From positions 1-64,000 of the forward strand of contig JAFIGH010000006.1 of assembly GCA_020831525.1 (NCBI GenBank): DNA of 64,000 bases, written 5' to 3'. This document shows, one piece after another, positions 60,015 through 64,000 of this stretch (the stretch's first letter is position 1; each line of letters opens with the position of its first letter). Source of the DNA: Opitutales bacterium. GTDB lineage: Bacteria; Verrucomicrobiota; Verrucomicrobiia; Opitutales; Oceanipulchritudinaceae. The position numbers and the translations under genes were made by a program. Under the pieces are notes generated by a model. It did not search any database. It was not told the DNA's origin and saw only the letters and a program-made list of their open reading frames with translations.

Positions 60015-61550
60015 ATGGATGTGGCAATTGTGACGGGCGCCTCCTCGGTATTGGGGCTGGCGATTTCGCGGCGACTGATCGACCTCGGTTTCCGGGTCTA
60101 CGGTCTGGGCGGTAACTTCGCGGATATTCCGCTGCGCAACTCGGCCTTTGTGCCGGTGAACTGCAATCTTGCCGATCCCGGACAAGTGGAGGGCTGCGCG
60201 CGCGAGATCATCGCCAAGGAGCGGGCCGTCTGCCTCGTCGTCAACAACGCCAAGCTCTACCCGCCGGAGGACCTCACGCAGGCGACGACCGACCAGTTGG
60301 AGCGCAGCCTCACGGTGAACCTCCTCTGTCCGCTGATCCTCTTGCGCGAGGCGCTGCCGGGCCTGCAGCGCCTGCAGGGGCAGATCGTAAACATCGCCTC
60401 GGCCACGCCTGAAACCGGACGCGGGGGCCCCACGGGCGCGGCGACGGCGGGCGCGCTGCGCTGGATGGGCGAGCAGCTTTTCCAGCAGGTGCGCGAGACG
60501 GGCGTGAAGGTGACAACGATTTCGCCCGAGCCCAACCGCTGGCGTCCCGCCGACACCGCGCCCGCGCCCGGACAGCGCCCGCAGAGTGTGATCGACCCCG
60601 ATGCCGTCGCCGGGTGTGTCGCCGACCTCGTGTCCAACCGCAGCGGCAACGTCATCACGGAGATCGTCTTGCGCCCGCAGCGTATTGTGGAAAAACCGCA
60701 GGTTCCGGTGCGCGAACTGCCCTACCCGAAGCCGCAGCCAATCCCCTACACCGTGCCGCGCGCGGAAATCGAGGCGGAGGAGCAGCTCGACGATGAGCGC
60801 GAGATTGCGCAGGAACGTCGGGAAGGTGGCGGCCAAACCGGTCCGGAGGACGGCGAAGACGCACGCCGTGGGCGGCGCCGTTCCCGCCGTCGGCGCGGCA
60901 AGGGCGACCGCGGGCGCGACGAGGCGCGCGAGGGAACGCCCGGACGGAGGGAAGATGCCGGACCGCCGCCGATGGAGTCCGGAAAAGCGCAGGCGGGCAG
61001 CGACGGGCAAGATGGAGAACAAGGGAGGCGTGGTGCCGCCCCGTCCGCCGCCGCGCCGCGGGAAGAACCGAAGCAACCGACCGCGGGGGAAGGCGGCGAA
61101 GGCAGCCGGCGCAAACGTCGGCGCAAACCGCGCCCGTCATCCATGGGGGTTCGCAGCGACCGTCCGCCGTTTGCCTCCGACGCCGGCGGCCCGAAATCGC
61201 CTGCCACGCCTGCGCAAGACAAGCCGCGTCGTTCCGGCCAGCCGCGTCCTGCTGCAGATGCTCCCGACATTGCCTCCGGCAGCCGTCCGTCCGGTCCCGC
61301 GCCGCGGTCCGCTGCATCGGTTCCCGGGGAGAAAGAAGGTGCCGCGTCCACGGGCGAGAAGCCGGCACCGGCCAAAGCGGCTAAGCGAGCCGCGAAGAAG
61401 GCTGCAAAGAAAGCGGCAAAAAAGGCCGCGAAAAGAGCGGTCAAGAAGTCCGGCACAACGAAAGGCGGCGCGAAAAAGAGCCCGGCGAAGAAAGCCGCGA
61501 AAAAGGCGGCCCGGAAAGCGGCGGATAATGCCGACGCGGCACGGGACTAG
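60015..61550 (+). CDS. SDR-like pseudoenzyme fused to a histone-H1-like basic tail
   Basis: 511 residues from the ATG at 60015. Residues 1-230 form a short-chain dehydrogenase fold: MDVAIVTGASSVLGLAISRR, VVNNAKLYPPED, TVNLLCP (Asn102) and IVNIASATPETG (Ser129). At the Tyr-x3-Lys position the sequence is GAATAGALRWMG, so the catalytic Tyr and Lys are Gly141 and Ala145, and ordinary SDR chemistry should be lost. A long disordered segment follows, with RRSRRRRGKGDRGRDEAREG, then a Lys/Ala tail (AKAAKRAAKKAAKKAAKKAA and more) like eukaryotic H1 or bacterial Hc1-type tails. The tail should bind nucleic acid. Confidence 0.85.
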   Translation: MDVAIVTGASSVLGLAISRRLIDLGFRVYGLGGNFADIPLRNSAFVPVNCNLADPGQVEGCAREIIAKERAVCLVVNNAKLYPPEDLTQATTDQLERSLTVNLLCPLILLREALPGLQRLQGQIVNIASATPETGRGGPTGAATAGALRWMGEQLFQQVRETGVKVTTISPEPNRWRPADTAPAPGQRPQSVIDPDAVAGCVADLVSNRSGNVITEIVLRPQRIVEKPQVPVRELPYPKPQPIPYTVPRAEIEAEEQLDDEREIAQERREGGGQTGPEDGEDARRGRRRSRRRRGKGDRGRDEAREGTPGRREDAGPPPMESGKAQAGSDGQDGEQGRRGAAPSAAAPREEPKQPTAGEGGEGSRRKRRRKPRPSSMGVRSDRPPFASDAGGPKSPATPAQDKPRRSGQPRPAADAPDIASGSRPSGPAPRSAASVPGEKEGAASTGEKPAPAKAAKRAAKKAAKKAAKKAAKRAVKKSGTTKGGAKKSPAKKAAKKAARKAADNADAARD

Positions 61551-61586: not shown

Positions 61587-61964
61587 ATGCACCTGAAGGT
61601 GTTGGCATCCGAGCTTGGCGTCGTCCGCTGTGATCCGGGCGCTGAAATCCCCGTCTGGGTGTGGAAGAGCCCGTTCTATTCCATCACCCGAACGGCGGAT
61701 GAGCTGTCTATTTTCTGCGAGGCGGAGGCCATTCCCGCCGCCGCCGCCGGTGCGGCGCGCGGTTGGCGCGCTCTCTGCGTCGCCGGGCAGATACCGCTCG
61801 AACTCTCCGGGGTGCTTGCCTCCCTTGTCATGCCAATGGCAAGCCGTCAAATCAGCATATTTTCCATCTCCACCCACGACACAGACTACATGCTCGTGCC
61901 GTCGGACCGGCTCGACGACGCCGTCGAGGTCCTGCGCTCGGCGGGGCACGACATCGAATTCTGA
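61587..61964 (+). CDS. ACT-domain (CASTOR/ACT_7-like) amino-acid sensor protein
   Basis: 125 residues. Two half-length ACT-like modules are visible: LKVLASELGVVRCDPGAEIP with SITRTADELSIFCEAEAIPA, and LELSGVLASLVMPMASRQIS then IFSISTHDTDYMLVPSDRLD. The ISIFSISTHDTDY(M/I)LV block is characteristic of this small stand-alone ACT family, which binds amino acids in other organisms. No enzyme domain. Probably a cytoplasmic ligand sensor; its target is not evident. It follows the SDR-tail gene after 36 bases. Confidence 0.85.
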   Translation: MHLKVLASELGVVRCDPGAEIPVWVWKSPFYSITRTADELSIFCEAEAIPAAAAGAARGWRALCVAGQIPLELSGVLASLVMPMASRQISIFSISTHDTDYMLVPSDRLDDAVEVLRSAGHDIEF

Positions 61965-62559: not shown

Positions 62560-62658
62560 TCGGGTATGATTTGGTCCGTCGTCTGTCTTTGCGCGGCGAA
62601 GAGCCTTCCATGAGGGGTGGACTCGTTCTTTGCGCAGCGGGCGGTCTGGTTTCGCGCT

Positions 62659-64000
62659 ATGAAGCATTGGTATTTTCGGTTTCCGGGGTTGTCCCGCGCA
62701 TGGCGGGCGGTGGGCTTCACCGCCGCGGCCGGTATTTTGTTAGTGATCATCGGGCGGGACCTGCCCGATTATACGGATCGCGCCGCGTCGTTGCGGGGCG
62801 GCGCCCATGAGGAGAACGTCGACTCGTCTCAAGATTCCGGAGCGGGCGGGGTAGATGGCGATGGCTCGCAAGAGTTTTCTTTTGGTGACATAAGCCTTCC
62901 CGCGCCCCTTGCGCTAGCTGACCGGTATACGGTATTGATAGACAAACGCACAACCGTCCTCTCACCCGCTAACGATAGCGAACAGGGTGCGCTGGAGCGT
63001 GTCGCTCTCTGGGGGGATGTGGGAACGGGCGAGCGGGTGCGTTCCGTGCAATGGTTTGCGGCAGGGGCGGAAGAAGCGGTCGATCCGGAGCCAACGATGG
63101 AGGCGCTCATGGCGGCGGATTATTTCATCGTGTCGCCCGTAGCGGCGACCGGCTGGGAGGCCTTGGATGCTGTGCTGGAAGCAGGTGGATGGAGTATTTC
63201 TCGGCGGCATCCGGGCAGCCGTGTAGCGCGCGTGACCGCGCCGTTGGTGTTCGAGGGCGGACTCGACGGTCTGGAAACGGCGCTGATTGTGCTGCAGAAT
63301 AAGTTGCCGAAAGGATACCTTTCGGGCTGGACCCATTTTCTGGAACCCGCCTTGGTTCCGAACGATACTGAGTACCCGCAGCAATGGGCCCCGGGTGTGA
63401 TCGACGCACCCTCCGCTTGGACGCGTACGACTGGATCGAGTGATATCGTTGTGGCCGTGATTGATACGGGGGTGGATTACAACCACCCGGACCTCAGGCC
63501 GAACATGTGGTCGAATCCCCACGAGGCCGCGGACGGCACGGACACGAGTGGAAACGGATTTGTCGATGACATCCGCGGTTGGGATTTCGCAGGCAACACG
63601 AACGATCCGCGTGACGTCTCCTCGCACGGCACCGGCGTGGCCGGGGTCCTCGGCGCGGTGGGCAACAACGCCTTCGGAATTGCCGGTGTGGCATGGTCGG
63701 TGCGGATGATGCCGCTTGCGGTGGGCTCTTCGAATATCCCTGTGGACCGCATTGTGGATGCCATTGACTACGCGATTTGGCAGAGGGAGGAGGGCGGACA
63801 GAATGTTGTCGCCGTCAACATCTCGCTCGGCGGACGCATGCCGGACGTGGGGCGCGACGAAGAGACACCCTTGTTTCTCGCTGTGCGGCGGGCGCGTGAC
63901 GCCGGTATTCTCGGTGTCTTCGCGGCCGGGAACGACGGCTTGAACAACGACGCTCCGGTCGCCGGTCGCCCCAACCATTTCTTCCCGTCCGACATCGATC
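62659..64000 (+). CDS. Subtilisin-like (S8) serine protease, N-terminal part (cut by window end)
   Basis: An open frame from the ATG at 62659 runs off the window end (447 codons seen). It starts with a signal/anchor (AVGFTAAAGILLVIIG), then an Asp/Gly-rich spacer and a propeptide-like region with ALADRYTVLIDKRTTVLSPA. The catalytic Asp is Asp269 in VVAVIDTGVDYNHPDL, preceded by QQWAPGVIDAPSAWTRTTG, and the His is His323 in VSSHGTGVAGVLGAVGNN. AVNISLGGR and GVFAAGNDGLNN follow. The active Ser lies beyond 64000. A secreted peptidase is likely; further C-terminal domains cannot be seen. Confidence 0.93.
   Translation, partial: MKHWYFRFPGLSRAWRAVGFTAAAGILLVIIGRDLPDYTDRAASLRGGAHEENVDSSQDSGAGGVDGDGSQEFSFGDISLPAPLALADRYTVLIDKRTTVLSPANDSEQGALERVALWGDVGTGERVRSVQWFAAGAEEAVDPEPTMEALMAADYFIVSPVAATGWEALDAVLEAGGWSISRRHPGSRVARVTAPLVFEGGLDGLETALIVLQNKLPKGYLSGWTHFLEPALVPNDTEYPQQWAPGVIDAPSAWTRTTGSSDIVVAVIDTGVDYNHPDLRPNMWSNPHEAADGTDTSGNGFVDDIRGWDFAGNTNDPRDVSSHGTGVAGVLGAVGNNAFGIAGVAWSVRMMPLAVGSSNIPVDRIVDAIDYAIWQREEGGQNVVAVNISLGGRMPDVGRDEETPLFLAVRRARDAGILGVFAAGNDGLNNDAPVAGRPNHFFPSDID

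Follow-up and report, generated by a model that had tools for sequence, protein, structure and literature searches.

The window, which is the whole stretch of 64,000 nucleotides analyzed here (positions 1 to 64,000 of contig JAFIGH010000006.1, from an Opitutales bacterium), contains an open frame on the forward strand at 60015-61550, which encodes a product of 511 amino acids. An SDR domain, a conserved linker, a disordered Arg-rich region, and a Lys/Ala tail are all found in this product, which confirms the observation of an earlier, sequence-only reading, that the frame encodes an SDR-fold pseudoenzyme with a histone-H1-like tail (here, the pseudo-SDR). The start at 60015 is correct, given that every relative opens at the same position with MD[IV]AIVTGA or a similar sequence. 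A longer frame is available from 59973, but the N-termini of the relatives align at 60015 instead, and a wrong start was rejected on this basis. The G+C content of the region is 67%, and the Lys enrichment of the tail runs against it. The features of the locus, all on the forward strand, are as follows:

60015..60683 (+), SDR domain of the classical fold, residues 1-223, with Rossmann strands b1-b7 and without the catalytic Tyr and Lys
60048..60050 (+), Val12, which replaces the middle Gly of TGxxxGxG (from the sequence)
60252..60254 (+), Lys80, which changes NNAG to NNAK (joint alignment)
60318..60320 (+), Asn102, the Asn of the catalytic tetrad, kept (joint alignment)
60399..60401 (+), Ser129, the Ser of the tetrad, present in the window protein, not conserved in the family
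60435..60437 (+), Gly141, in the place of the catalytic Tyr (joint alignment)
60447..60449 (+), Ala145, in the place of the catalytic Lys (joint alignment)
60684..60785 (+), Pro-rich linker, conserved, which includes a short helix, residues 224-257, ...PYPKPQPIPYTVPRAEIEAEE
60786..61349 (+), Arg-rich stretch predicted to be disordered (pLDDT of about 30), residues 258-445, which contains the blocks RRGRRRSRRRRGKG and RRKRRRKPRP
61350..61547 (+), Lys/Ala H1-like tail, residues 446-511, KAAKRAAKKAAKKAAKKAAKRAVKK...
61587..61964 (+), small ACT-domain protein (PF13840) downstream of the pseudo-SDR, the same neighbor in six relatives of family f1

Further downstream, a frame at 62617-63999 (+), named as a subtilisin-like S8 protease from a reading of its sequence rather than from a family scan, runs off the end of the window.

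Fold of the SDR domain and loss of its active site

Matches in Pfam, NCBIfam, and the PDB were all found for residues 1-223, including adh_short (PF00106, 1.4e-19) and more than 200 solved SDR sequences (PDB SDRs from 4e-13). In the Pfam scan up to E 1, the only matches were adh_short and adh_short_C2, with none to an NmrA-like family, and the same scan, which recovered SDR families only, returned no phasin or AlgP-type N-terminal domain. The AF2 model of the domain (pLDDT 76.5) superposes on the solved SDR 3rkr with a VIA-align Z of 25.1 and an rmsd of 2.4 Å over 205 residues, which gives a classical SDR fold over residues 1-223, in a fold search whose list does not exclude the families missing from it. 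The active-site loop (residues 131-145), with a pLDDT below 50, is the least confident part of the model.

The positions of the Tyr-x3-Lys motif had been read as Gly141 and Ala145, and this was borne out by a joint alignment of 34 members of the pseudo-SDR family with 36 intact comparison SDRs. The column of the catalytic Tyr holds Gly in 16 of the 34 members and Tyr in just one (L060, YSASN), which is without the Lys. Neither the Lys nor the Tyr and Lys pair is found in any of the 34, whereas both residues are present in all 36 comparison SDRs. An intact Tyr-x3-Lys elsewhere in the domain was rejected, as none occurs in the translation, and the joint alignment agrees. Two other catalytic residues had been described as retained. 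Of these, Asn102 is indeed there, and the near relatives conserve it. Ser129 is there as well, but it stands one residue closer to the Tyr column than is usual, and the family as a whole does not conserve it.

The nucleotide-binding glycine pattern, which was also thought to be retained, stands only in part. The motif reads TGASSVLG, as against TGxxxGxG, and its first and third Gly are kept in 34/34 and 31/34 members, respectively, while the middle one is found in 12/34. The Gly of NNAG is replaced by Lys in 18 of the 34 members and kept in two, whereas it is present in 34 of the 36 other SDRs. The Gly of the PG motif is found in no member (0/34), and the Arg after beta-2, which usually holds NADP, in one (1/34, versus 28/36 of the other SDRs). 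Most members have also replaced the ribose-binding Lys, 25/34 retain the adenine-side Asp, and the more distant members have lost more of the NAD(P) site.

With the catalytic Tyr and Lys replaced, the usual SDR mechanism, as it is established, can no longer operate in the window protein, and, with most of the cofactor residues replaced as well, NAD(P) binding of the canonical kind appears doubtful. The classical SDRs (PF00106; 17-beta-HSD14 and 3rkr, for example) have the fold of residues 1-223, the first and last Gly, and Asn102 in common with the window protein, whereas they keep the Tyr-x3-Lys, NNAG, the PG motif, and the middle Gly, all of which it has lost, and a long basic tail has been added. 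An automatic label of “SDR family oxidoreductase” would be misleading for the pseudo-SDR clade.

Distribution, selection, and descent of the family

With the domain as the query, orthologues were found in the genus, family, and order of the window's genome, in records named as Opitutales, Puniceicoccaceae, Verrucomicrobia, and Opitutia MAGs. The pseudo-SDR is present in 37 of the 132 sampled genomes of the order, in nine families, a count made at a threshold of 1e-20, which, like the sample itself, may miss divergent members. No member was found in family f14 within these 132 genomes. In a sample of 289 genomes of the phylum, the matches of the A1 profile below 1e-30 were confined to the window's order, and a phylum-wide family was rejected. 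In a class sample of 188 genomes, a single match below 1e-30 came from outside the order, and was an intact generic SDR, as were the weaker out-of-order matches that were aligned. The family thus appears, in the sampled genomes, only in one order of Verrucomicrobiota. In a tree of 70 rows, all 34 pseudo-SDRs form one clade, with support of 100/99.

The SDR domain is under strong purifying selection, with a dN/dS of approximately 0.04 (0.035 against G002, of the same genus), which indicates that the gene is not decaying. In the same comparison, the linker is the most constrained piece (0.012), while the disordered region and the tail have values of 0.33 and 0.27, respectively. A pseudogene or artefact was rejected on the basis of the dN/dS and of conservation over nine families. 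The only copy that looks decayed, with two in-frame stops, is found in a genome of 1.7 Mb (L117, in G078). Despite the loss of the Tyr and the Lys, the conservation of helix aF is above average, and GAAxxGGLRWMGE is preserved. The linker pattern (LPxx...EPIPTP-like) is also found in distant families, and residues 224-257 are a possible docking motif.

In 11 genomes, the pseudo-SDR lies directly 3' of a gene of the spore-photoproduct-lyase (SPL) family, an arrangement shared by most of the relatives that have both genes, and the two genes overlap by 10 nucleotides in nine of the 11. A nucleosidase-like gene is often found upstream of this pair, and miaB (in 11 loci), a membrane protein gene, and a guanylate-kinase-like gene are often downstream. 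In the window's genome, the SPL-like gene is located on another contig (C147), and is followed, with an overlap of four nucleotides, by an active SDR (YAGAK) that has no tail. At that locus, the SPL-family radical SAM gene (L043:2886-4764, minus strand) lies between a nucleosidase-like gene and the active SDR. An active SDR likewise follows the SPL-like gene in G096.

These two SDRs (L043:2149-2889, minus strand, and that of G096) are the nearest intact SDRs by profile score (138 bits), and keep the Tyr, the Lys, the NADP-type Arg, and NAAG. Homologues with the Tyr-Lys pair and without a tail, which the sequence-only reading had considered damaging to its case, do exist, but they are active paralogues that fall outside the clade, beside the generic SDRs, and for this reason point to its ancestry rather than to a refutation. 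Given that an active SDR holds the same SPL-coupled position in the window's genome and in G096, the gene order suggests an origin of the pseudo-SDR in the SDR of an SPL-like operon, which is the direction of change that we infer. An active, tail-less SDR and a dead, basic-tailed one in the same gene position offer a natural comparison for an apparent passage from enzyme to nucleic-acid-binding scaffold.

The basic tail and the candidate roles of the protein

The description of the tail as disordered and rich in Lys and Ala proved accurate, with 24 Ala and 20 Lys in the last 66 residues, and both the Arg-rich region and most of the tail predicted to be disordered (pLDDT of about 30-45). The net charge of the window protein after residue 240 is +27, and this region is net positive in 33 of the 37 members (median +26). 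The exceptions are L049 (net charge of -5, with no KA stretch), L055 (cut by the end of its contig), and L056 and L057, which are negative overall and still have basic ends. Tail length varies greatly across the family, with weak tails in some members. The length of the disordered region also varies widely, while its Arg blocks recur.

Proteins with KA tails were counted by a single exact DNA pattern for KKAAKKAA, the reversed control of which had no matches. In the window's genome, this pattern is found on the pseudo-SDR and on three other proteins only, at the C-termini of DNA topoisomerase I, an OmpR-type response regulator, and a Fur-like regulator, which were named by reading their sequences rather than by a family scan. 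In the relatives, it is found on topoisomerase I (TopA), ribosomal protein L17, the N-terminus of Rho, and DksA/TraR-like, ribbon-helix-helix-like, and all-K/A/P proteins. Since it is on proteins such as these that the motif occurs, the KA tail appears to behave as a module of nucleic-acid-binding proteins and, in the window's genome, of DNA-binding ones. Across the order, KA stretches were recorded on TopA (L180), L17 (L185), the N-terminus of Rho (L195), and a DksA/TraR-like protein (L181). One relative encodes both a near-pure Lys/Ala/Pro protein of approximately 387 amino acids with repeats of about 102 nucleotides (L184, G047:C1 about 466313-467388), and a ribbon-helix-helix-like protein with a long KA tail (L206, G047:C1 about 575948). 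In bacteria, low-complexity regions rich in Lys are overrepresented among DNA-binding proteins, and those rich in Arg among RNA-related proteins (PMC6821194). The window protein has both.

The best explanation of these data, to which about an even chance is given, is that an inactive SDR survives as an oligomeric scaffold, the basic tails of which bridge nucleic acid. The active-site cleft would be out of use for SDR redox chemistry, whereas the fold and the core helices aE and aF, the usual SDR dimer interface, would be preserved so that two or four copies can assemble. From each assembly, two to four long, disordered tails, rich in Arg and Lys, would extend, and may bind and bridge nucleic acid irrespective of its sequence, with the DNA of the nucleoid as the most likely target. 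Precedents for this reading are PhaF and AlgP, in which an H1-like tail on an N-terminal domain tethers cargo to the nucleoid (PMC9239181), and SDR5C1/MRPP2, an SDR that acts in tRNA methylation and processing independently of its activity and its NAD site (PMC3526285). Here, we infer the oligomerization, DNA rather than RNA as the ligand, and the bridging role. The sequences suggest, then, that an old enzyme has been turned to a structural role in nucleic-acid binding. The idea that a pseudoenzyme is tethered to nucleic acid, as first put forward, is well supported by the loss of the Tyr and Lys across the clade, the purifying selection, and the presence of the tail motif on DNA-binding proteins, while its extension to the sensing of NAD(P)H was not borne out. 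Against the scaffold, the Arg-rich block is as similar to RNA-binding regions as to those that bind DNA, KA tails are also found on Rho and L17, the tail is variable in length and weak in some members (such as L049), and the conservation of aF may reflect folding rather than an interface.

A fuller version of the scaffold reading, which is held tentatively and is rather improbable as a whole, would be that of a hitherto undescribed nucleoid-organizing family of a single order, in which the SDR of the SPL-like operon lost its active site and gained an H1-like tail, to become an oligomeric, chromatin-like DNA-bridging protein, possibly with a different small ligand in the cleft. The pseudo-SDR is a candidate lineage-specific nucleoid protein in Verrucomicrobiota, and is testable as such. 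Dead SDRs and H1-like tails are each known, and a conserved, order-restricted family that joins the two appears to be new. No direct precedent was found in the open-licence literature searched, either for a pseudo-SDR with a DNA-binding tail or under CSP41.

The scaffold may be directed to RNA instead, with the Arg-rich region of the dead SDR as the part that binds RNA or an enzyme acting on RNA, either in the manner of SDR5C1/MRPP2 (HSD10) in the mitochondrial RNase P, or in condensates, as in the Arg-rich regions of Rho and RNase E. SDR5C1 keeps the active site that the pseudo-SDR has lost and is not known to have an H1-like tail, and it is its partner, TRMT10C, that binds the RNA. The disordered region does contain RRRR and RGR blocks and R/D/N repeats, a very similar Arg/Asn/Asp-rich region is found on the Rho of G101, and miaB, which encodes a tRNA-modification enzyme, is a frequent downstream neighbor. 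The precedent of an SDR in the service of a nucleic-acid complex is also favorable, given that SDR5C1/MRPP2 needs neither its activity nor its NAD site to take part in tRNA methylation and processing (PMC3526285). This reading is nevertheless unlikely, as the terminal tail is Lys/Ala rather than Arg/Gly, its motif is otherwise found on DNA-binding proteins in the window's genome, and the miaB neighborhood is not universal.

The coupling to the SPL-family gene raises the prospect of an accessory of the SPL-like radical SAM enzyme, which would hold this enzyme on DNA while the upstream nucleosidase clears the 5'-deoxyadenosine. The SPL family is one of DNA repair (PF20903, matched at 3e-23), and the overlapping gene order, together with the coupling of the SPL-like gene to an active SDR in the window's genome, is in its favor. 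The SPL-like gene is absent, however, from 23 of the 37 pseudo-SDR genomes, including the nearest relatives, and the co-occurrence of the two genes is weak and not significant (Fisher p 0.08), while the window's own SPL-like gene lies on another contig. In addition, the SPL-like protein (aligned from G046) keeps CxxxCxxC but has a Tyr at the position that we take to be that of the catalytic Cys of solved SPL, so that its identity as a photoproduct lyase is not justified. An obligate SPL partner was rejected as the sole explanation, and the accessory role is quite improbable.

Slightly less probable again is the nucleoid protein that senses NAD(P)H, in which the cleft would bind the dinucleotide and alter the binding mediated by the tail. 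The retention of the first and third Gly and of the adenine-contact Asp would allow for this, and a Lys-to-Ala SDR mutant still binds NAD in the crystal (6h0m), but the erosion of the NAD(P) site, most advanced in the distant members, weakens the idea: most members have replaced the middle, NNAG, and PG Gly, the NADP-type Arg, and the ribose-binding Lys. NmrA-type redox sensors share the idea of a non-catalytic SDR that acts as a regulator. NmrA itself belongs to the extended type of SDR and is not known to carry an H1-like tail, and the binding of the cofactor, its defining property, is doubtful in the pseudo-SDR.

A granule or cargo tether, in which the SDR domain would dock on a cargo such as polyphosphate, a storage granule, or an enzyme complex through the linker while the tail anchors it to the nucleoid, is very unlikely. 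The N-terminal domain and H1-like tail of the Pseudomonas proteins PhaF and AlgP tether cargo to the nucleoid (PMC9239181). The window protein resembles them in joining a structured N-terminal part to a Lys/Ala(/Pro) H1-like C-terminal tail, and its linker is very strongly constrained, but their N-terminal domains are phasin or helical rather than SDR, their tail repeats are of the KPAA type, and the Pfam scan found no phasin match. An enzyme with some other chemistry in the cleft, without the Tyr and Lys, is scarcely credible. In its favor, f1 and f5 each conserve loops near the cleft (RGG and PEPNRWRP), but these loops are not maintained in the clade's other families, and the active-site loop is the least confidently modeled part of the domain.
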